From Halomarina ordinaria (lineage in GTDB: Archaea > Halobacteriota > Halobacteria > Halobacteriales > Haloarculaceae), in the NCBI RefSeq assembly GCF_030553305.1, contig NZ_JARRAH010000001.1, positions 620,001-684,000 on the forward strand: 64,000 bases of DNA, given 5' to 3'. The notes under the pieces were generated by a model. The model saw only the letters and a list, made by a program, of their open reading frames with translations. It was not told where the DNA came from and searched no databases. Shown here one piece after another: positions 4,148 through 26,098 of the stretch. Position 1 is the first letter of the stretch; every line of letters starts with the position of its first letter. The position numbers were made by a program, and so were the translations under genes.

Positions 4148-5758
4148 ATGAGCCCTGACCGGGCCACGCTGGAGCGCGCGCTCGAACGTGGTGAGGAAGA
4201 GGGTGGCAGCGTCGAGTTCAAGGAACGACTCACGCGGAACGTCCACCTGGCCGACGGTCGCCTGGAGAGTCTGGCCGCACAACTTCGCCACCGCGTCCTC
4301 TCGGGGGACGGGGAGGCGACGTACGTCGTCGGCGTCACCGACGACGGGGGGCTGGCCGGCATCGCTCCCGACACCTTCTCCGAATCAATGGACGTCCTCT
4401 CGCTGCTAGCCGAGGAGGCCGGCGCGCACATCGAGGCGGTCCAGACCTGGGGCGTCGGCGAGCACGGCGACCGGGGCATCGTCGGCGTCGCCACCGTCCG
4501 CGAGGGCGCCATCCTCGACACCGACGACGAGCACATCGTCGTCGGGACGGCGGGCCACGTCGACCACGGCAAGAGCACGCTCGTCGGCTCGCTCGTCACC
4601 GGCCAACCCGACGACGGCGAGGGCGGTACCCGCGGCTTCCTCGACGTCCAGCCCCACGAGGTCGAACGCGGCCTCTCGGCGGACCTCTCCTACGGCGTCT
4701 ACGGCTTCACCGGCGAAGGGCCGCTCCGGACGTCGAACCCCCACCGGAAGGCGGACCGCGCACGTATCGTCGAGGACGCGGAGCGCGTCGTCTCGTTCGT
4801 CGACACCGTCGGCCACGAACCGTGGCTCCGGACCACGATTCGGGGACTGGTCGGCCAGAAACTCGACTACGGCCTGCTCGTCGTCGCCGCGGACGACGGC
4901 CCGACGAAGACGACCCGCGAGCACCTCGGCATCCTCCTCGCGACGGAGTTGCCCACCATCGTCGCCATCACGAAGGCCGACATGGTGAGCGAGGAGCGCG
5001 TCGCCACGGTCGAGCGCGAGGTCGAACGCCTGCTGCGCGACGTCGGCAAGGCCCCGCTCCGCGTCGAGCGCCACGGCGTCGACGCGGCCGTCGAGGAGAC
5101 GAACGAGCAGGTCGTCCCCGTCGTCACCACGAGCGCGGTGACGATGCAGGGGCTCTCGACCCTCGACGAACTATTCGAGCGCCTGCCGAAGACGGCCGAC
5201 GGCGCCGGCGAGTTCTCCATGTACATCGACCGCACCTACTCGGTGACGGGCGTCGGCGCCGTCGCCTCGGGGACCGTCCGCACGGGCGAGGTGGAAGCCG
5301 GCGACGAACTCCTGCTCGGCCCGATGCCGGACGGGTCGTACCGGCCCGTCGAGGTGCGCTCCATCGAGATGCACTACCATCGGGTCGACGAGGCGAAGGC
5401 CGGCCGCATCGTCGGTATCGCCCTCAAGGGCGTCCGCGAGAGCGACATCGAGCGCGGGATGGTACTCGTCCCCCGCGGCTCCGACCCCCCCGCAGTCCGC
5501 GAGTTCGAGGCGGAGGTGATGGTGCTCAACCACCCGACGCGCATCGGCGACGGCTACGAACCCGTCGTCCACGTCGAGACGGTGAGCGAGGCGGCCGTGT
5601 TCGCCCCGGAGGGCGGCCAGCTCCTCCCCGGCGACACGGGCACCGCCCGCGTCCGATTCAAGTTCCGCCCCTACCTCGTCGAGGCGGGCCAGCGCTTCGT
5701 CTTCCGCGAGGGACAGAGCAAGGGCGTCGGGACGGTCACGCGCGTCGTTCAGGAGTGA
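4148..5758 (+). CDS. GTPBP1-family translational GTPase
   Basis: A 536-residue EF-Tu-like GTPase. A basic/acidic N-terminal extension of about 130 residues precedes the G domain. G1 is 'GHVDHGKST' (about 135-143), G3 is 'DTVGHEPW' (about 220) and G4 is 'TKAD' (about 273), where the usual Asn is replaced by Thr. The C-terminal half contains the two beta-barrel domains ('GTVRTGEVEAGDELLLG' and 'VEAGQRFVFREG'). The start ATG at 4148 follows a pyrimidine-rich leader; a much longer upstream frame is a shadow of the phosphatase gene. Eukaryotic GTPBP1/2 act in ribosome and mRNA surveillance; haloarchaeal members are uncharacterised as far as I know. Confidence 0.9.
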   Translation: MSPDRATLERALERGEEEGGSVEFKERLTRNVHLADGRLESLAAQLRHRVLSGDGEATYVVGVTDDGGLAGIAPDTFSESMDVLSLLAEEAGAHIEAVQTWGVGEHGDRGIVGVATVREGAILDTDDEHIVVGTAGHVDHGKSTLVGSLVTGQPDDGEGGTRGFLDVQPHEVERGLSADLSYGVYGFTGEGPLRTSNPHRKADRARIVEDAERVVSFVDTVGHEPWLRTTIRGLVGQKLDYGLLVVAADDGPTKTTREHLGILLATELPTIVAITKADMVSEERVATVEREVERLLRDVGKAPLRVERHGVDAAVEETNEQVVPVVTTSAVTMQGLSTLDELFERLPKTADGAGEFSMYIDRTYSVTGVGAVASGTVRTGEVEAGDELLLGPMPDGSYRPVEVRSIEMHYHRVDEAKAGRIVGIALKGVRESDIERGMVLVPRGSDPPAVREFEAEVMVLNHPTRIGDGYEPVVHVETVSEAAVFAPEGGQLLPGDTGTARVRFKFRPYLVEAGQRFVFREGQSKGVGTVTRVVQE

Positions 5759-5818
5759 CACAGCGCCGCCGAGGGGTGCGGTGACGCGATTTAAGGTCGT
5801 GCCGACCCTAGGCGGACC

Positions 5819-6058
5819 ATGCAACTCTCGGACGTCGGACGCCGTGTGCGGGAGGTCGACGACTCCCTCAGCGAACAGCAGAAGTTCCGCGGCGGGGGCC
5901 TGCTCATCCTGGGCGGCGCCGCGCTCGTCGCGCTGCTCGCGTTCGTCCCGCTCGACTCCGTCTCGCTGCAGGCCATCCTCGCCACGATGGGCGTGGCGAT
6001 GATGGTCGTCGGGACGCTCTCGGTCGGCACGTCCGGCCGGCGCGAACGGCCGGTGTAG
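5819..6058 (+). CDS. small membrane protein with two helices
   Basis: A 79-residue protein: a soluble N-terminal part (1-25, charged, 'VREVDDSLSEQQKFRGGG'), then two transmembrane helices (about 27-43 and 48-66) separated by a short 'PLDSVS' turn, and a basic tail (GRRERPV). A TATA-like 'gatttaag' lies about 30 bp upstream of the ATG, so the transcript is probably leaderless. Widespread small conserved membrane protein type in Halobacteria; no function known to me. It points toward the minus-strand mch operon and ends about 5 bp before it, so the two transcription units converge. Confidence 0.7.
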   Translation: MQLSDVGRRVREVDDSLSEQQKFRGGGLLILGGAALVALLAFVPLDSVSLQAILATMGVAMMVVGTLSVGTSGRRERPV

Positions 6059-6063
6059 GGGGA

Positions 6064-6576
6064 CTACTCGGCCGCCCGGTAGCGCGGCGCCTCGTCCTCC
6101 CCTTCGTCCGCCGCCTCGACCCGCGTCGCGAGGTCGAGGACGACGGCCCACTCGAGAATCCGTTCGACGCGCTCGCGCCAGACGCGCTCCCAGTCGGTGC
6201 GGCGGCTGCGTTCCCAGCGCGGTATCGTCTCTCGGACGCGCCCGTAGGCCGCCGCCGGGGTGAGCGGTTCCTTTGACGTCGCCAGCGCGTCGAGGACGGT
6301 CGACGCCCCGTGGATTCGCTCGCGGAACGCCCGCGCCAGGTCCTCGTCCGTGAGGTCGGCGCGGGTCTGGTAGAACTTCCCGTCGGACTCGGCGAGGAGG
6401 CCGAGCGCCCGCAGGAACGTGAGCCACTCGCGAGCGGCGTCGCGGGACGGGAGGCCGGCGTCGGCCATCAGCCGTGCACAGCAGTCGTCCTCGGTGCCGG
6501 GGACGAGCGGGAGCGTCCGGGCGGCCTCCCGGACGAACGACAGCGGGCGCGGCTCGGGGACGACCTTGAACTTCAC
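6064..6576 (-). CDS. conserved haloarchaeal winged-helix-like protein
   Basis: A 170-residue acidic protein. Its ATG overlaps the stop of mch by 4 nt, so the two are translationally coupled. 'REWLTFLRALGLLAESDGKFYQT' (about 47-70) reads like the recognition helix and wing of a winged helix-turn-helix domain, and a second helical block follows (80-150, with Arg/Trp-rich 'IPRWERSRRTDWERVWRERV'). No catalytic motif is visible. Conserved beside mch in my recollection of haloarchaeal genomes, but this was not checked. A DNA-binding or mch-related regulatory role is inference only. Confidence 0.72.
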   Translation of the reverse strand: MKFKVVPEPRPLSFVREAARTLPLVPGTEDDCCARLMADAGLPSRDAAREWLTFLRALGLLAESDGKFYQTRADLTDEDLARAFRERIHGASTVLDALATSKEPLTPAAAYGRVRETIPRWERSRRTDWERVWRERVERILEWAVVLDLATRVEAADEGEDEAPRYRAAE

Positions 6577-7505
6577 AGTCCGAAACTCGACGCGAGGAGG
6601 TCCTCGTCCGTCCGGCCGAGCGAGCGGGTGGGGCCGCCGACGACGTCGACGGTCACCTGTGCGGGCGCGAAGACGCTCTCGGGTACCTCGTAGAAGTCCC
6701 AGTCGACGTCGTCGAACACCTGGGCGAACGGCGTGCCGTACTCCTCGCGTGCGCTCGACGGCACCTCGTCGAACGCGTCGAAGTCGCTCTCGGCGGTGAG
6801 GTGGACCTGCGCGCCGTAGGCGAGCGCGTCGTTCGTGCGGGCGATGGCCGCCTCCTCATCGGCGGCGACGGGGGCGACGGGGGACCTGGCCGTCGCGGTG
6901 AGCAGGTCGAGCGGGTCGAATCCGAGTTCGAAACAGCGCCAGACGGCGAGTTCGGCCGCCCGCGCGGCGGTCGTCACGCTTCCCACGATGCTCGCCGTCG
7001 GGTACGTCGGCAGGACGACGCTCTCGGGGGAGACGTCGCAGCGCTCGGCGACGTGCTCCGCGACGGCCTCGTCCGGGAGGACGTCGGACTCGACCGAGAG
7101 GACGGCGAACTCGAAGGCGTCGGCGTAGCCCAGTTGTCGGTACTCCTCCTCCTCGGCGACGAGCGCGCGGGCGGGGCCGCTCCCGAGCGCCTCGTAGCCG
7201 TCGACCGTGAGTTCCCAGCCGGCCTTCTGCGCGCAGAGCAGCGCGAGCGCCGGGTGGTCGGTCGAGAAGTCGACGACCGGACGCGGCGCGCCCGCCACGT
7301 CGTCCATCGAACTGGCGACCGTCGCGAGGCCGGCGCTCTGTATCTCCGCGAGCAGCAGGCCGGCCTCGATGCCGCCGAGCGCCTCGACGCCGAAGTCGAT
7401 GACGCGCGCGCCGTTGTCGAGTTCGAACGCCTCGATGGCGAGTTCGTCGGCGAAGTCGAGCGCCTCGTCGACGAGGTCGAGCGCCATCCGGTTGAGACTC
7501 TCCAT
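6573..7505 (-). CDS. mch: methenyltetrahydromethanopterin cyclohydrolase homologue
   Basis: A 310-residue protein that matches Mch throughout: 'MALDLVDEALDFADEL' at the N-terminus, 'EIQSAGLATV' and 'FSTDHPALALLCAQKAGW' in the middle, and 'SRTNDALAYGA'-like 'ARTNDALAYGAQVHL' in the C-terminal third. In methanogens and methylotrophs Mch interconverts 5-formyl- and 5,10-methenyl-tetrahydromethanopterin. Halobacteria are thought to use folate and retain mch as an inherited enzyme probably adapted to tetrahydrofolate. A 'ccctttagcc' TATA-like element about 30 bp upstream suits a leaderless start. It is first in a two-gene operon with the winged-helix-like protein. Family firm; in vivo substrate uncertain. 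Confidence 0.93.
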   Translation of the reverse strand: MESLNRMALDLVDEALDFADELAIEAFELDNGARVIDFGVEALGGIEAGLLLAEIQSAGLATVASSMDDVAGAPRPVVDFSTDHPALALLCAQKAGWELTVDGYEALGSGPARALVAEEEEYRQLGYADAFEFAVLSVESDVLPDEAVAEHVAERCDVSPESVVLPTYPTASIVGSVTTAARAAELAVWRCFELGFDPLDLLTATARSPVAPVAADEEAAIARTNDALAYGAQVHLTAESDFDAFDEVPSSAREEYGTPFAQVFDDVDWDFYEVPESVFAPAQVTVDVVGGPTRSLGRTDEDLLASSFGL

Positions 7506-7558
7506 ACCCCGAATTGCGCGGTTTCGGCTAAAGGGTTTACCAGTCGCGCCGACCGCCC

Positions 7559-8725
7559 CTACCAGGCGTCGTCGAGCGTCTCGCGGACGGCCGCGCGCGA
7601 CGGTCCGTACCCCTCGGGCCCGTTCTCGAACAGCGCGTCCTCGCGGGTGAGTCGGGCGACGTCGTCCAGCGCGTCGCGCTCGACGCCGTCGAGGTCGCGC
7701 AGGCGCGACGGCAGGTCGAGGCCGTCGCGGACCCGTTCGACCTCGCTGACGACCCCCTCGGCGTCGTCGACGCCGAACGCCGTCGCCAGCAGGTCGCGCC
7801 GACCGTCGACCGTCGCGAAGACGTCGCGGAGGACGTGCGGGACCATCACGGCGTGCGCGAGGCCCTGCTGGACGCCCGCCCGCCGCCGGAGCCCGTGACC
7901 GTAGGCGTGGACGACGCCGAGTTTCATCCCGTCGATGACGGAGACGCCGTACTGACAGCAGACGACGCCCGCGACCGCCGCGTCCATCGCCGCCGCCGAC
8001 TCGTCCATGCGCGGGAGGGCGTCGGCGAGCAACGAGAGGCCGCGACTCGCCGTCCCGTCGGTCAGCGGGGTCGAGTGCCGCGAGAGGACCGCTTCGAGGC
8101 CCTTGTCGAAGCCGTTCATCGCGGAGCCGGCGAGGACGGACCGGGGCGTCGTCTCGAAGAGCGCGGGGTCGTAGAACAGCCCCTCCGGGAGCAGGTCGCT
8201 CCGTCCGAGCCCGCCGCTCGTTCGCCCCTCCTCGGTCGGGAGGCTCACGCCCGCGATGGGCGAGAGGTCGGCGCCCGCGAGCGTCGTCGGGACCGCGAAC
8301 AGCGGCGGCAGGGGAGCGCTCTCGGCCGGGAGGTCGACCCGGCCCGTCTCGCGGATGGCGTCGAGCGACTGCCCCGTCACCGCGAGGACGCGGATGGCCG
8401 TCGCCACGTCGAGGCTGCTCCCGCCCCCCAGCGCGACGAGCGCGTCGGCCTCGTGCTCGCGCATCGCGGCGACCCCCTCGACGGCCGTCTCGATGCGTTT
8501 CTCGGGCGTCGTCTCCGCGAAGACGCCGGCGAGTCGGTCGCCGAGGCCCTCCCGGACGGGGCCGACGACGGCCTCGGTCGTGCCGACGGTGCGTCCGGCG
8601 ACGACGAGCGCGCGTTCCGCACCGCGGTCGGCGAGCGCTTCACCGAGGCCGGCGACGCAGTCGCGCCCGAAGTGGATGGCCCCGGGGTCGTAGTCGAAGA
8701 CGAACGGCGCGGGTGGTGTCGTCAT
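7559..8725 (-). CDS. iron-containing alcohol dehydrogenase family protein
   Basis: A 388-residue enzyme of the group III (Fe/Zn) alcohol dehydrogenase fold. The N-terminal Rossmann-like part has 'VALGGGSSLDVATAI' (about 97-111), the nucleotide-binding GGGS motif. The C-terminal metal part has 'MKLGVVHAYGHGLRRR' and 'GLAHAVMVPHVLRD', supplying the conserved His ligands. The ATG at 8725 gives a normal family length; the frame runs on upstream only as a shadow of the next gene. Relatives include maleylacetate reductases, butanol dehydrogenases and glycerol dehydrogenases, so the substrate is unknown. It lies about 40 bp downstream of the phosphodiesterase-like gene on the same strand. Confidence 0.85.
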   Translation of the reverse strand: MTTPPAPFVFDYDPGAIHFGRDCVAGLGEALADRGAERALVVAGRTVGTTEAVVGPVREGLGDRLAGVFAETTPEKRIETAVEGVAAMREHEADALVALGGGSSLDVATAIRVLAVTGQSLDAIRETGRVDLPAESAPLPPLFAVPTTLAGADLSPIAGVSLPTEEGRTSGGLGRSDLLPEGLFYDPALFETTPRSVLAGSAMNGFDKGLEAVLSRHSTPLTDGTASRGLSLLADALPRMDESAAAMDAAVAGVVCCQYGVSVIDGMKLGVVHAYGHGLRRRAGVQQGLAHAVMVPHVLRDVFATVDGRRDLLATAFGVDDAEGVVSEVERVRDGLDLPSRLRDLDGVERDALDDVARLTREDALFENGPEGYGPSRAAVRETLDDAW

Positions 8726-18625: not shown

Positions 18626-19216
18626 ATGGCCGACATCGACGACACCGACCGTACTATCCTTCGGCTCCTGGTCGAGGACGGCCGACGCCCGTACAGCGAC
18701 ATCGCCGAGGAGGTGGGACTGTCGCCGCCGGCGGTCTCCGACCGTATCCAGCGACTGCGCGACTTCGGCATCATCAGGCGCATCACCGCGGACCTCGACC
18801 GGTCGCGGTTGCGCGACGGCGTCGCCGTCCTCGTCGAACTCGACGTCACCCAGAACGCGGTCGAGGCGACGCGTGCCTCGCTGACCGGCGCCGAACCGGT
18901 CGAACACGTCTTCACCACGGCCGAGGGACGACTGGTGTTCACCGTCCGGGCCCCCGACGGCGACGTCAGGGGGTTCCTCGAGGACACCGTCCCCTTCGAC
19001 GCCGTCGGCGACATCGACGTCCGCCTGCTGACCTCTCAGTCGTGGTCGCCGGGGGTCGGCGCGGCGGAGTTCGCGCCGTCGTGCGCCGAGTGCGACAACA
19101 CCGTCACCAGCGAGGGCGTCACGGAGACTCTCGGCGGGGAGACGTACCACTTCTGCTGTTCGTCGTGTGCCGACCGCTTCGAGTCGCGCTACGAGTCGCT
19201 CGAACAGGGCGCCTGA
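18626..19216 (+). CDS. Lrp/AsnC-type regulator with C-terminal TRASH metal-binding domain
   Basis: A 196-residue DNA-binding protein. Residues 1-50 form an AsnC-type helix-turn-helix ('DRTILRLLVEDGRRPYSDIA', 'SPPAVSDRIQRLRDFGIIRR'). A short RAM-like ligand domain follows (about 60-140). The C-terminus (about 153-190) has the TRASH cysteine pattern CAEC ... CCSSC. In Halobacteria such proteins are associated with copper P-type ATPases and metal-responsive control; no such ATPase is in this window, so it probably acts in trans. It is the last conventional gene before the repeat-protein cluster and reads toward it; whether it controls that cluster is open. Confidence 0.9.
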   Translation: MADIDDTDRTILRLLVEDGRRPYSDIAEEVGLSPPAVSDRIQRLRDFGIIRRITADLDRSRLRDGVAVLVELDVTQNAVEATRASLTGAEPVEHVFTTAEGRLVFTVRAPDGDVRGFLEDTVPFDAVGDIDVRLLTSQSWSPGVGAAEFAPSCAECDNTVTSEGVTETLGGETYHFCCSSCADRFESRYESLEQGA

Positions 19217-19684: not shown

Positions 19685-19703
19685 GTCGGTGAATAACAAA
19701 TAG
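19685..19703 (+). promoter_or_regulatory. conserved 19-nt upstream box, copy 1
   Basis: GTCGGTGAATAACAAATAG, 52 nt before the ATG of the long repeat gene. Two close copies (GTCAGTGAATAACGAATAC and GTCAGTGAGTAACAAATAC) lie 56 nt before the two short paralogues. Consensus GTCRGTGARTAACRAATAS. It could be the TATA/BRE, the transcription start region, or a shared operator. Confidence 0.55.
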
Positions 19704-19755
19704 ATGATAAGTGGTTGCTGACGGTGTCGACGTCGTTAGCGTCGATGGAACCACA

Positions 19756-20724
19756 ATGTTTGGAAGTACATCCCGAAAACTACTGGCGGTACTCGTCGTC
19801 GTCTCCCTCGCGTTGACGGGCGCGGCGGGTATGGTCACGGCTGACGACAACGAGCAAGAACAGACGCAAGAACGGTATCAGGACTCCAGCACGTCTCTCT
19901 TCGGCTGGTTCAACTCGCAGAGCGCGGACCAACAGGGTGACCAGGCGCAGGCCGCCGGTCAGCTCGGCGAGGACAACGAGCAGGAACAGGACCAGGAGGC
20001 GGAACAGAAACAGTACGCCACCCTGTACGGCATCTTCAACGACCAGGAGCAGGACCAGGAGAGCGACCAGTCGCAGTGGGCCGCTCAGGTCGGTGAGGAC
20101 AACGAACAGGAGCAAGAGCAGGACAGCGAACAGGACCAGTACGCGTACCAGGAAGGCATCTTCAACGAGCAGGAGCAGGACCAGGAGAACGAGCAGGACC
20201 AGTACGCGGAGCAGTACGGCGAGGACAACGAGCAGGAGCAGGAACAGGAGAACGAACAGGACCAGGACGCCGAGCAGGACGGCGAGGATAACGAACAGGA
20301 GCAAGAGCAGGAGAACGAACAGGACCAGGAGGCCTACCAGTACAACGACGATAACGAGCAGGAGCAGGAACAGGAGAACGAGCAAGAGCAAGACGCTGAG
20401 CAGGACGGCGAGGACAACGAACAGGAGCAGGAACAGGAAAACGAACAGGACCAGGAAGCGTACCAGTCCGCCGACGATAGCGAACAGGAGCAGGAACAGG
20501 AAAACGAACAGGAGCAGGACGCTGAGCAGGACGGCGAGGACAACGAGCAGGACCAGGAGCAGGACGCTGAGCAGGACCAGGAAGCCACGCAGTACGGTGA
20601 CGACAACGAGCAGGAGCAGGACCAGGAGAGCGAGCAGGAGCAGGACGCCACCCAGTCCGGTTCCAACAACCAGCAGTCGCAGTCCCAGAGCGGCAGTCAG
20701 AGCCAGACCTCGGTCCAGCTCTGA
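19756..20724 (+). CDS. secreted acidic 21-residue glutamine-ladder repeat protein (curlin-like), long form
   Basis: A 322-residue protein that decomposes exactly: signal peptide 1-29 (MFGSTSRKLLAVLVVVSLAL..., cleavage after VTA, Sec type), N-cap 18 residues, twelve contiguous 21-residue repeats without one indel, C-cap 23 residues. Repeat consensus: Q1 x G3 x x N6 x Q8 x Q10 x Q12 x N14 x Q16 x Q18 x A20 x. Ladder residues sit on every second position, as in a beta-strand face; parity breaks once per repeat at G3-x-x-N6, the likely turn. Intervening residues are almost all Glu/Asp, up to ten negative charges per repeat. Early repeats alternate aromatic 'G(I/W)FN' with acidic 'GEDN' turns. No Cys. 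The bacterial curlin motif Q-x-G-x2-N-x-A-x3-Q shares Q1, G3, N6 and Q12. Start: MFG aligns with MIG of the paralogues. Role as an extracellular fibre is inferred. Confidence 0.85.
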   Translation: MFGSTSRKLLAVLVVVSLALTGAAGMVTADDNEQEQTQERYQDSSTSLFGWFNSQSADQQGDQAQAAGQLGEDNEQEQDQEAEQKQYATLYGIFNDQEQDQESDQSQWAAQVGEDNEQEQEQDSEQDQYAYQEGIFNEQEQDQENEQDQYAEQYGEDNEQEQEQENEQDQDAEQDGEDNEQEQEQENEQDQEAYQYNDDNEQEQEQENEQEQDAEQDGEDNEQEQEQENEQDQEAYQSADDSEQEQEQENEQEQDAEQDGEDNEQDQEQDAEQDQEATQYGDDNEQEQDQESEQEQDATQSGSNNQQSQSQSGSQSQTSVQL

Positions 20725-20745
20725 ACGCCCGCGCGACCGACTTCC

Positions 20746-20750
20746 TTTTT
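20746..20750 (+). terminator. T-run after the long repeat gene
   Basis: TTTTT within 'cttcctttttcgg', about 22 nt after the stop codon: an oligo-T tract typical of archaeal intrinsic termination. Confidence 0.4.
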
Positions 20751-20824
20751 CGGCCGATGTGTCCCGAGCCGTCGCTACCGCTCGGCGGTCGAGCTATCGT
20801 AGAACGTGCGTAGTGTCGCGTGCG

Positions 20825-20962
20825 TCACTCCTCGTTCATCGGCGAGACGGCGTCGAGCGCGCGGCGGATCTCCTCGCCGTCGGAGAGGGCGCGAATCGCT
20901 CGGCGCATCTCGGCGAAGTCGGGCATCCGATGTCGCGTCGGGGGCGAGGGTGTCGGGACCAT
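20825..20962 (-). CDS. candidate 45-residue mini-protein between repeat genes
   Basis: A minus-strand ATG frame of 46 codons between the long and first short repeat gene. The body MPDFAEMRRAIRALSDGEEI then RRALDAVSPMNEE is a charged amphipathic helix of good haloarchaeal composition. An internal ATG at 20926 would give a 33-residue version, which I slightly favour because the upstream 12 residues (MVPTPSPPTRHR) are Pro/Arg-rich. It lies antisense to the repeat-gene direction. No family recognised. Confidence 0.42.
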   Translation of the reverse strand: MVPTPSPPTRHRMPDFAEMRRAIRALSDGEEIRRALDAVSPMNEE

Positions 20963-21442
20963 ACGCGGCGCTACTCGCGGTTCCGTTATGGTTGTTTCGG
21001 CGAACTATAATGAAAGATAATGCAGGGGTACCACACGATATCGAAAAATCCGAAACCAGGTGAACGCAACCGTGACAGCCGATTGCTATCTGTCCGAGTA
21101 AGGACCCTCGCTCGTTCGTTCGGTTCGAATTACCTCCGGGCGGTTTCTGGAGTTGTCGTGACGCGGTGAGTGACCGGAGGGCCGGAGTTCTCCGAGGGGG
21201 AAGTGGTCATGGATACGACGCACTGGTCGCCGTCAGCGGGTTTAGTCGTGAACACAGGGCGGGTATCGTTTCCAACGGTCCGCAATCCCGGGAGGACTCC
21301 CGGCCCGACCGGTCGCGGTCGAACAGTACGCGTCGCGGGACCACCCTCACGCGGTACATCTCACTCCGACCTCAGGAACGTCCATGGGCGCGGAACCGAG
21401 AAATCCACCGAAGATGGAGTCTCTATATCTCCATTAACATGT

Positions 21443-21461
21443 GTCAGTGAATAACGAATAC
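21443..21461 (+). promoter_or_regulatory. conserved 19-nt upstream box, copy 2
   Basis: GTCAGTGAATAACGAATAC, 56 nt before the ATG at 21518; see the copies at 19685 and 22400. A 'ctctatatctcc' AT-rich block lies about 15-20 nt upstream. Confidence 0.55.
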
Positions 21462-21517
21462 GGGCGGCGTGTTTGACCCTGACGTCGACGTCAGCGGGGC
21501 GTCGACAGAGAGCTACC

Positions 21518-21919
21518 ATGATTGGAAAGAAAACCAGACTGCTGCTCGTCTTCGTGTCCGTCGTTGCACTCGCCCTCGCGGGTGCGGCGGGCTCGGCTGC
21601 GGCCAGCTCCAGCGACCAGTACCAGTATCAGGACAACGACCAGAAGGACAAGGCCAAACAGAGCGGTGCCTTCAACGCGCAGTACCAGTGGCAGGATAAC
21701 GACCAGAAGCAGAAGGCCAAGCAGAGCGGCGCCTTCAACTACCAGGACCAGTACCAAGACAACGACCAGAAGCAGAAGGCCAAGCAGAGCGGCGCCTTCA
21801 ACTACCAGGACCAGTACCAGGACAACGACCAGAAGCAGAGCGCCCAGCAGAGCGGCGCGTTCAACACCCAGTCCCAGAGTCAGAGCAGCAGCCAGTCGCA
21901 GTCCGCGACCCAGAGCTGA
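21518..21919 (+). CDS. secreted 21-residue glutamine-ladder repeat protein, short form 1
   Basis: A 133-residue paralogue of the long form with the same parts list: 29-residue signal peptide (MIGKKTRLLLVFVSVVALAL..., cleavage after AAA), 18-residue N-cap, three 21-residue repeats, 23-residue C-cap. Repeat: QSGAFNYQDQYQDNDQKQ then KAK, keeping Q1, G3, N6, Q8, Q10, Q12, N14, Q16, Q18, A20. Outward positions carry Tyr/Asp in the first half and Lys in the second, so each repeat is nearly neutral, with three Asp and three Lys. That is very unusual for a secreted haloarchaeal protein and opposite to the acidic long form. The C-cap is Ser/Gln-rich ('TQSQSQSSSQSQSATQS'). No Cys. A heterotypic partner or nucleator of the long protein is inference. 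Confidence 0.85.
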   Translation: MIGKKTRLLLVFVSVVALALAGAAGSAAASSSDQYQYQDNDQKDKAKQSGAFNAQYQWQDNDQKQKAKQSGAFNYQDQYQDNDQKQKAKQSGAFNYQDQYQDNDQKQSAQQSGAFNTQSQSQSSSQSQSATQS

Positions 21920-22399
21920 ACTCACTGACCTGAACACCCACGCAGCCCTTTATTTCGGCCTCCTCACGTCACCATCGAGCCCGTCACGCTCGCATGGACC
22001 GACTCATGACGTTCGACAGGCGCACTAATGGCAGCCAGTTGTCAATACTTCGTGTAGTGAGTCTCCTTCGTTCGTTCGGTCCGAATTATCTCCGATAGAG
22101 TTCTGGAGACGTCGTGAAACGGTAACTAGCCGCTTCTCTGGACTCCTCCGGTGGGGGGTGGTCAGGGTGGTCGGCGGTTCGGTCTCTGTGAACCAAATTA
22201 GTCGGATTCGAGCCGTCACGTTCATTATCAACCGTCTGCAACCCGGAGAGGACTGCTGACGGAACGAGTCGAAAAACCGTCATACAATTCTGCAAGGATA
22301 ACTCGCGCGCGGACGTTTCAATCTACCAGCAGAACGTCCATTACTCATCGAAGCGGTAATTCGACCAACCAGTGAGTCTCTGTCCAGTGGTTAAAAAAT

Positions 22400-22418
22400 G
22401 TCAGTGAGTAACAAATAC
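22400..22418 (+). promoter_or_regulatory. conserved 19-nt upstream box, copy 3
   Basis: GTCAGTGAGTAACAAATAC, 56 nt before the ATG at 22475. An AT-rich 'ggttaaaaaat' immediately upstream is a possible TATA element. Confidence 0.55.
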
Positions 22419-22474
22419 GAAGGGCGTGGACGGCCCTAATGTCGACGTCAATGAGGTGTCGGCAGAGAGCTACC

Positions 22475-22876
22475 ATGATTGGAAAGAAAACCAGACTGCT
22501 GCTCGTCTTCGTGTCCGTCGTCACGCTCGCCCTCGCGGGCGCGGCGGGCTCGGTCGCGGCCAGCGACAACTATCAGAACCAGGACCAGTGGAACGACCAG
22601 AAGGAGAAGGCCTACCAGAGCGGCTTCGCGAACTACCAGGACCAGTGGCAGGATAACGACCAGAAGCAGAAGGCCAAACAGAGTGGCTTCTTCAACTACC
22701 AGAACCAGTACCAAGACAACGACCAGAAGCAGAAGGCCTACCAGAGCGGCGCGTTCAACACCCAGTACCAGTACCAGGACAACGACCAGAAGCAGAAGGC
22801 CAAGCAGAGCGGCGCCTTCAACACCCAGTCCCAGGGTCAGAGCAGCAGCCAGTCGCAGTCCGCAGTCCAGTTCTGA
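22475..22876 (+). CDS. secreted 21-residue glutamine-ladder repeat protein, short form 2
   Basis: A 133-residue sister of short form 1, produced by the tandem duplication. Signal peptide 1-29 (MIGKKTRLLLVFVSVVTLAL...), N-cap 18 residues (SDNYQNQDQWNDQKEKAY), three full repeats, C-cap 23 residues ending AVQF. Relative to form 1, the turn after G3 varies (SGFAN, SGFFN, SGAFN) and some Lys21 are Tyr; every ladder position of the three full repeats is kept. The C-cap pattern (QSG..N.QSQ.QS.SQSQ...Q) is shared with both other paralogues. It shares the 19-nt upstream box. Divergence only at outward-facing and turn positions points to selection on a stacked fold. Sec-secreted; no Cys; partner proteins unknown. 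Confidence 0.85.
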   Translation: MIGKKTRLLLVFVSVVTLALAGAAGSVAASDNYQNQDQWNDQKEKAYQSGFANYQDQWQDNDQKQKAKQSGFFNYQNQYQDNDQKQKAYQSGAFNTQYQYQDNDQKQKAKQSGAFNTQSQGQSSSQSQSAVQF

Positions 22877-25396: not shown

Positions 25397-26098
25397 TTAC
25401 GAGTGGTCGGGACGCTCGGCGTACGCGATGGGGTCGCGCGCGCCGGCCGCGCGGAACGCCTCCAGGCGGAACGCACAGGAGTCGCAGGTGCCGCAGGCGG
25501 GTGCCTCGTCGCGGTAACACGACCAGGTGTGCTCGAAGGGGACGTCGAGGTCGAGGCCGCGTTCGGCGATGTGGGTCTTCGACCACTCGGCGAACGGCGC
25601 CTCGATGGTTATCTCCGTCTCGGGGCGCGTCCCGACGTCGACGACGCGCTCGAACGCCTCGAAGAAGGCGGGGCGGCAGTCGGGGTACCCCGAGAAGTCC
25701 TCGGAGTGTGCGCCGATGAACACCGCCTCGGCCGCCTGTGCCTCGGCGTAGGAGACGGCCATCGAGAGCAGGTTCGCGTTGCGGAAGGGGACGTAGGTGT
25801 CGGGTATCTCCTCGCTCTCGGTGTCGGCGTCGCCGACGGCCATCCCCTCGTCGGTCAGCGAGGAGCCGCCGATGCGCGAGAGGTGGTCGGTCTCGATGTG
25901 CAGGAAGTCGGCCGCGTCGCACTCCTCGGCCAGTCGACTCGCACACTCGTACTCCTTCGTCTCGGTGCGCTGACCGTAGGATGTGTGCAGGAAGAGGGGG
26001 TCATAGCCGCGTTCGCGCGCCTCCCAGACCGCGGTGGCGCTGTCCATGCCGCCGGAGACGAGGACGACGGCCCGCGGCGCGTCGGATGAGTCGCTCAC
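25397..26098 (-). CDS. queC: 7-cyano-7-deazaguanine (preQ0) synthase
   Basis: A 233-residue N-type ATP pyrophosphatase that converts 7-carboxy-7-deazaguanine to preQ0, the precursor of archaeosine in tRNA. P-loop 'LVSGGMDSATA' (about 13-23), 'LHTSYGQRTETKE', 'YVPFRNANLLSMAVSYAEA', 'GAHSEDFSGYPDCRP' and the zinc site Cys residues in 'CYRDEAPACGTCDSC'. GTG start at 26098 (VSDSSDAPRAVV), with no ATG nearby. It is separated from queE and queD by ppc, all on the minus strand, so the pathway is clustered but interrupted. Confidence 0.96.
   Translation of the reverse strand: MSDSSDAPRAVVLVSGGMDSATAVWEARERGYDPLFLHTSYGQRTETKEYECASRLAEECDAADFLHIETDHLSRIGGSSLTDEGMAVGDADTESEEIPDTYVPFRNANLLSMAVSYAEAQAAEAVFIGAHSEDFSGYPDCRPAFFEAFERVVDVGTRPETEITIEAPFAEWSKTHIAERGLDLDVPFEHTWSCYRDEAPACGTCDSCAFRLEAFRAAGARDPIAYAERPDHS

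Follow-up and report, generated by a model that had tools for sequence, protein, structure and literature searches.

Does a haloarchaeon encode its own version of the curli fibre? The question is raised by three genes, A, B and C, of Halomarina ordinaria, which lie in a 64,000-nucleotide stretch of contig NZ_JARRAH010000001.1 (positions 620,001 to 684,000 of the forward strand; hereafter the window, whose own numbering is used below) and encode proteins built from a 21-residue glutamine ladder. An original prediction, made from the DNA letters, read the products as secreted proteins that resemble curlin and form extracellular beta-solenoid fibres. Our comparative sequence analysis indicates that the ladder proteins are curlin-like repeat proteins outside the curlin family proper. 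We incline, by a modest degree, to the view that 21-mers in general stack in a curli-like manner and that A, B and C would be exported surface-fibre subunits, distantly related to curlin. The three proteins and their parts are located as follows.

19756..20724, + strand: protein A, 322 amino acids (aa), a signal-like N-terminus (29 residues) and 14 ladder units, with a strongly acidic outward side.
19756..19842, + strand: signal-like N-terminus of A, read from sequence; a hydrophobic stretch with the end A-A-G-M-V-T-A, no lipobox.
20653..20721, + strand: C-terminal cap unit of A, QSGSNNQQSQSQSGSQSQTSVQL.
21518..21919, + strand: protein B, 133 aa, a signal-like N-terminus (29 residues) and 5 ladder units.
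21518..21604, + strand: signal-like N-terminus of B, read from sequence, with the end S-A-A-A.
21848..21916, + strand: C-terminal cap unit of B, QSGAFNTQSQSQSSSQSQSATQS.
22475..22876, + strand: protein C, 133 aa, a paralogue of B (83% identity by tblastn).
22475..22561, + strand: signal-like N-terminus of C, read from sequence, with the end S-V-A-A; helix 4-20 in the AlphaFold2 (AF2) model.
22805..22873, + strand: C-terminal cap unit of C, QSGAFNTQSQGQSSSQSQSAVQF.

At these coordinates the proposed decomposition into 29 + 18 + n x 21 + 23 residues, with n = 12, 3 and 3, is exact, with zero remainder. The proposed "N-cap" and "C-cap" have the lengths given but are not separate caps; both are ladder units (positions 4-21 and 1-23), and counting them gives totals of 14, 5 and 5 units in A, B and C. 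The open reading frames are real genes, because congeneric species have homologues at the corresponding site, flanked by an Lrp/TRASH regulator and queC. Comparison of each protein with itself revealed the best match at lag 42 in A (0.71) and at lag 21 in B and C (0.77 and 0.71), against a maximum of 0.27-0.33 in 2000 shuffles; the 21-residue ladder of the three proteins is far beyond chance, and a period of 42 residues outweighs that of 21 in A and in most of the long relatives. The Gln-Gln gaps are even except for a gap of 7 across the G-x-x turn and a few further odd gaps in A and B, which bears out the prediction that ladder residues alternate and that the parity flips once in each unit, at G-x-x. 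Analysis of 106 units from 12 related proteins showed that Q12 and Q16 are invariant, that N6 is N or S in 99% and Q1 is present in 88%, that G3 is mostly G or A, and that the outward positions vary freely. The 21-residue consensus given originally stands at Q12, Q16 and N6 and needs correction at two other positions: Q is about as common as A at position 20, and N14 is loose.

The ladder is most likely maintained by selection rather than by recent slippage, since non-synonymous changes between B and C fall on outward positions 20 times and on ladder positions twice, and since adjacent units differ by synonymous as well as non-synonymous changes. Insertions and deletions comprise almost exclusively whole units, over dozens of units and several genera. 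The 21-residue phase is kept elsewhere, as had been anticipated: it recurs across the Halomarina members and in orthologues from Halogranum and from two genera that belong to a different family.

The N-termini of A, B and C each run from a charged start through a hydrophobic stretch to an end of small residues, and the helix at residues 4-20 in the AF2 model of C, the paralogue of B, falls within this region; the three proteins are probably exported through an N-terminal signal, in line with the secretion originally proposed. In homologues from the congeners G051 and G054 the N-terminus contains S-R-R-L-V-I, a possible Tat motif. Several database matches were set aside: PilX_N (9e-4) and OmpX (1.5e-3) in Pfam/NCBIfam lie below the cut-off and over the signal peptide, as do Conotoxin, Spore_YhaL and similar matches of Halogranum proteins, while the weak alpha-synuclein matches of C (E 0.014-0.14) overlap the signal region and were taken as chance. 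The mature proteins contain no proline, and those of the short members are 104 residues long. Gln accounts for 28-29% of A, B and C, and Glu plus Asp for 36% of A, while the outward residues of B are Y/D in its first half and K in its second. The C-terminal units belong to a type, xQSQSxSQxQxxxQx, that is common to all small ladder members, those of Halogranum included.

The relation to curlin rests on a shared motif and on a chain of profile comparisons. The minimal curli repeat is X6QXGX2NX10 (Dueholm 2012, PMC3521004), and this pattern is matched exactly 9, 4 and 4 times in A, B and C, against at most 3, 1 and 2 times in 500 shuffles, so the predicted curlin spacing of Q1, G3, N6 and Q12 stands. 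Of the 392 genomes, those of five other haloarchaea encode proteins that truly belong to PF07012, over the cut-off (9.6e-37, 125 bits), and are built from 19-residue units such as QDGKYNDADVDQRNKAGVF. The units of Halogranum (QDGKYNDADQDQDSDQRQRAR) are intermediate between these haloarchaeal 19-mers and the Halomarina 21-mers: hhalign connected Halomarina with Halogranum (98.6%, E 1.5e-15, score 72.6 versus at most 15.3 in shuffles) and Halogranum with the 19-mers (96.4%, E 1.1e-9, score 46.7 versus at most 20.6), and, apart from a two-residue deletion per unit after N14, the units align in register. In addition, one Halogranum protein matches the solved curlin 8c50 at E 9.5e-5, and its shuffled and reversed copies gave no match. 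These comparisons point to a likely common origin of the 21-mer ladder and the curlin repeats, by way of one bridging group, Halogranum. The 19-mer loci are L078:7423-8562 (-), L079:7055-7858 (-), L032, L033 and L034; each of their units comprises two N-x-Psi-x-Psi-x-Q motifs with one residue between them, in a strict period, and the protein from G266 ends in a coiled-coil-like tail.

Several results weigh against the curlin kinship and the curli-like stacking. The PF07012 profile found no match in A, B and C even at E 10, in ten ladder relatives at E 1, or in the whole H. ordinaria genome at E 0.1, and the suggested membership of this family was not borne out. In curlin each of the two strands carries the hydrophobic steric-zipper motif N-$-Psi-$-Psi-$-Q (Sleutel 2023, PMC10192328), and the haloarchaeal 19-mer proteins have 18-22 matches to it; in its strict form, N-x-Psi-x-Psi-x-Q, this core motif has 0 matches in A, B and C and in every 21-mer relative that was scanned, and glutamine occupies the hydrophobic core positions in A, B and C. 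The direct hhalign comparison of Halomarina with the 19-mers was weak (3%, score 15.3 versus at most 12.9 in shuffles), and a second Halogranum paralogue did not match 8c50. The AF2 model of C, computed from 6 alignment rows, has one strand of 16-18 residues per unit at a predicted local distance difference test (pLDDT) score of ~55, and Foldseek matched it to long antiparallel hairpins; pore-forming hairpins among these matches were taken as a likeness of topology, not of kinship. Furthermore, protein A has a net charge of -103, and its stacking would require screening by salt. CsgG (PF03783) is absent from six haloarchaeal genomes, that of H. ordinaria included, as expected in cells with no outer membrane; CsgE, CsgF and CsgD were not searched for. 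We do not place the ladder proteins in the curlin family because they lack the PF07012 profile and the hydrophobic core on the side of the repeat family and CsgG on the side of secretion; the predicted likeness to curli thus survives in the minimal motif and the profile bridge, and not in these three features.

The family extends beyond A, B and C. A second ladder locus on the same contig, at ~561-566 kb, encodes big1 (555 aa), big2 (748 aa) and big3 (336 aa). The big2 protein of H. ordinaria has 32 consecutive 21-residue units, its copies in G051 and G054 show one single-residue slip, and in big1 and big3 the 21-residue phase is weaker, yet still the leading lag. Both loci are present and syntenic in G051 and G054, the big locus adjoining orc1/cdc6 and the A-B-C locus lying between the AsnC/TRASH regulator and queC. 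The family was found in 3 of 8 Halomarina genomes, the five others (one 73% complete) giving no match to either locus. A repeat profile matched 11 of 392 Halobacteriales genomes, several marginally, and in 393 genomes across the phylum the 21-mer family was confined to members of the order (E 1e-4), so conservation across Halobacteria, which the original prediction had envisaged, gives way to a patchy distribution; PF07012 had no match at E 1e-3 in the 393-genome sample.

Halogranum amylolyticum has many ladder genes. Three of them are small and share the C-terminal cap, and another encodes a relative of big1, 629 aa long, in which the C-terminal domain of big1 recurs (E 1.6e-32). Halogranum ladder genes (L096, L101, L102, L103) lie near or at contig ends, and two contigs bear a nearly identical ladder gene of 369-371 aa; copy numbers there are uncertain because the repeats probably broke the assembly. 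Two-gene clusters in 21-residue phase occur in the two genera of another family (L072:5218-9748, 709+809 aa; L073:5278-9955, 737+820 aa). At L075:138-4103 (+) with 5467-7947, and at L076:165-4937 with 5564-8383, an FG-GAP gene (by Pfam at L075, by eye at L076) whose own ladder is full of NQT/NQS sequons neighbours the gene of a ladder protein of 827 or 940 aa, whose units are 23/24 residues long. In a ladder protein of G054 (L027:9316-9804, -) the signal is separated from the ladder by a long insert rich in Lys, His and Pro (KDHKKDHKK...), and Halogranum members have a His/Lys/Asp-rich one; such inserts perhaps bind metal or a polyanion.

Analysis of the fold gave two different pictures. The 21-mer has one clear turn per unit, since only x-G-x-x flips the alternation, whereas the curlin repeat has two. 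The AF2 model of a G054 homologue, for which 32 in-phase alignment rows were available, has two strands per unit (pLDDT ~55), and its nearest solved folds are mostly beta-solenoids, with FapC first and CsgA third, none of them significant. The two models, at the same pLDDT of ~55, thus disagree: that of the homologue is solenoid-like and that of C is not, and they do not establish the predicted beta-solenoid with inward Gln/Asn ladders. In A, in big2, in Halogranum and in two other genera, a ladder unit is more similar to the second unit along than to its direct neighbour, and unit shuffling showed the even-odd alternation to be significant in big2 of H. ordinaria (p=0.0005) and of G054 (p=0.003), in G314 (p=0.0035) and also in G327; it is not significant in A and is absent in B and C. 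The 940-aa relative at L076:5564-8383 has an insert of ~10 residues in every second turn of its 23/24-residue units, and over part of this protein the unit lengths alternate 34/24. Together these patterns suggest that the long ladder proteins have a 42-residue structural period, with two repeats per turn, as a wide solenoid or a meander, while the even-odd alternation may also reflect clash avoidance in a narrow solenoid.

Four other readings were weighed against curli-like stacking, one of them being a variant of it. The exported ladder proteins could form an antiparallel cross-beta meander of the silk-like kind, in which each 21-mer is one strand of ~17 residues plus a hairpin turn; we regard this as rather unlikely. 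The single long strand and the hairpin matches of the C model are what it would produce, the alternation runs unbroken across Q12-x-N14-x-Q16 with a parity flip solely at x-G-x-x, and both the next-but-one similarity of units, which fits alternate turns on opposite edges, and the insert in every second turn of the 940-aa relative agree with it. However, the confidence of that model is low, the deeper alignment of the homologue gave a solenoid-like one, and a charge-pair test of parallel versus antiparallel stacking yielded no significant signal, the outward charges not being significantly complementary in antiparallel register. The lack of a 42-residue alternation in B and C tells against the meander and also against a wide two-sheet solenoid, the sub-case of curli-like stacking in which two 21-mers with stretched strands would make a 42-residue coil. 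To this wide solenoid, which is seen in neither AF2 model, we likewise give only a small chance: the 42-residue super-period favours it, its turn Q-x-G-x-x-N equals the curlin arc, and centrosymmetric-class curlins have half-repeats of strand plus XGXX (PMC10192328), but 5 units would leave half a coil, though curlins tolerate that too (PMC10192328).

The proteins might also fold as beta-ladder monomers that never polymerise and serve as surface-layer spacers, in ion or ice binding, or as adhesin stalks. Several ice-binding proteins and other monomeric solenoids are among the nearest folds of the G054 homologue model, none significant, and the distinct Ser-rich C-terminal unit could stop stacking; the link to curlin repeats, the short 5-unit members, which resemble subunits more than stalks, and the presence of a ladder in the anchor-like big1 make this reading improbable in our judgement. 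Least probable of all, and by our estimate a long shot, is a disordered, hydrated acidic matrix or desiccation-protection protein without beta structure, with repeats produced by replication slippage. Such a protein would account for the low complexity, the low AF2 confidence and the patchy distribution, but it sits poorly with the two-residue alternation and lack of proline, the whole-unit indels, the conservation of ladder over outward positions, and the synonymous differences between units, which argue against fresh slippage.

The curli-like stacking that we prefer can be set out as a sequence of steps. Each 21-mer would present an inward ladder (N6 Q8 Q10 Q12 N14 Q16 Q18 A/Q20 Q1) and an outward, often acidic side, and would close with x-G-x-x, a turn found in curlin as well. 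After export by the N-terminal signal, the chain would fold outside the cell, in molar salt, into a beta-ladder, as the alternation and the kinship make likely; its units would stack on one axis into ladders of identical Gln/Asn side chains, and free beta-edges at both ends would, as in curlin, let extracellular fibres elongate end to end. A, with its acidic coat, would lend the fibre one kind of surface and B and C, with their mixed charges, another, with a possible role in matrix or adhesion, as the amyloid staining of Haloferax biofilms (PMC4180959) would suggest. The second cluster would supply very long ladder proteins and a membrane-anchored, N-glycosylated base of type II topology, big1. 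In this protein a short charged start is followed by a single membrane span, a linker rich in Ser, Asp and Asn, the ladder repeats and a C-terminal domain that is conserved, and the big1 proteins contain 17, 24 and 21 N-x-S/T sequons versus ~5 in shuffles, whereas A, B, C and all small members contain none and big2 few or none. The natural reading of this sequence pattern would be that the base is anchored and glycosylated and that the polymer subunits are not glycosylated, and the L075/L076 gene pairs look like the same anchor-plus-polymer plan. In its fullest form, Gln/Asn polar-zipper curli-like amyloid fibres in haloarchaea, made without a CsgG-type exporter from co-regulated subunits of differing surface charge, with glycosylated big1 as a CsgB-like anchor, the proposal is tentative, and we put it somewhat short of an even chance.

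The co-regulation is suggested by an element upstream of the ladder genes, whose setting in the window is as follows.

18626..19216, + strand: AsnC/Lrp-type regulator with a C-terminal TRASH domain, flanking the ladder locus in three species.
19693..19705, + strand: related upstream element ATAACAAATAGAT, 63 bp before the ATG of A.
21451..21463, + strand: upstream element ATAACGAATACGG, 67 bp before the ATG of B.
22408..22420, + strand: upstream element GTAACAAATACGA, one mismatch, 67 bp before the ATG of C.
25397..26065, - strand: QueC, the right-hand flank of the ladder locus in three species.

The 13-bp element RTAACRAATACGG (= ATAACRAATACGG) has exactly five copies in three whole Halomarina genomes, all of them ~65 bp before a small ladder gene, and the backward control pattern has zero occurrences in the same genomes; the copies before A, C and the third gene of G054 are imperfect. 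With two mismatches allowed, the element is not significant inside the window alone, and we count it as ladder-specific because of its whole-genome specificity, not of window statistics. The ladder genes would thus form a co-regulated set with a dedicated upstream element, and the AsnC/Lrp-TRASH protein is a possible regulator. The AsnC/Lrp-TRASH gene and the ladder locus are separated in G051 by a gene that resembles a heavy-metal ATPase (a likeness of sequence, not a Pfam match).

The claim that no such system had been described holds for the Gln-ladder family, of which no description was found in the open literature, most subscription journals and preprints being outside the scope of the search; it does not hold for archaeal curli-like repeats as such, since one unnamed archaeal protein with regularly spaced repeats of this kind is mentioned in one sentence (Dueholm 2012, PMC3521004). 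The large curlin survey covered bacterial genomes only (PMC10192328). What appears new here is the glutamine core, the different unit length, the lack of CsgG and a separate anchor candidate, in proteins that are curli-like by motif and profile bridge. If fibres form, curli-type amyloid would reach into the archaea, where it would be exported by another route and have a polar core that works at molar salt, and the essentials of curli (turns, ladder, stacking) would be separable from what it can dispense with (hydrophobic zipper, CsgG); if the polar-zipper reading is true, a second, separately equipped curli-type system would exist in another domain of life. The short members, at 104 mature residues, are easy to express, so the question can be put to a direct test.

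Known systems offer several points of comparison. The biofilm matrix of Haloferax volcanii binds Congo red and thioflavin T (PMC4180959), the protein responsible being unconfirmed, as is HVO_1403 as the amyloid protein of this species (PMC12520557). The sheath proteins of Methanospirillum and Methanosaeta (SH, MspA) are archaeal amyloid-like surface material (PMC10593813, PMC6242892). They belong to another host group and are set beside the ladder by description, not by sequence or fold. We know of no such ladder in them. FapC, a functional amyloid of Pseudomonas, is the first, though not significant, fold match of the G054 homologue model and has no sequence link to the ladder proteins in a PDB sequence search; its repeat and its secretion differ from theirs. 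For the HET-s prion domain, a passage in PMC4518210 describes a 21-residue pseudo-repeat in a beta-solenoid amyloid; unlike the ladder it has two repeats and a hydrophobic triangular core and is fungal, and the PDB search gave no sequence match. The haloarchaeal 19-mers (G266, G344, G350, G405, G435) differ in their hydrophobic core (A8, V10, A16, V18) and in having no 42-residue alternation, but they keep Q1, G3, N6, Q12 and N14 in register through Halogranum and have a signal-like N-terminus. Compared with curli CsgA/CsgB (PF07012; 8enq, 8c50), the ladder has a unit of 21 rather than ~23 residues, a core of Gln rather than A/I/V/L, a second arc of 3 residues or none, no CsgG, and an archaeal host with one membrane; what the two have in common is the X6QXGX2NX10 pattern with its Q1/G3/N6/Q12 spacing, the x-G-x-x turn, and the build of exported repeat proteins (here, export as read from sequence) with a variable number of repeats.

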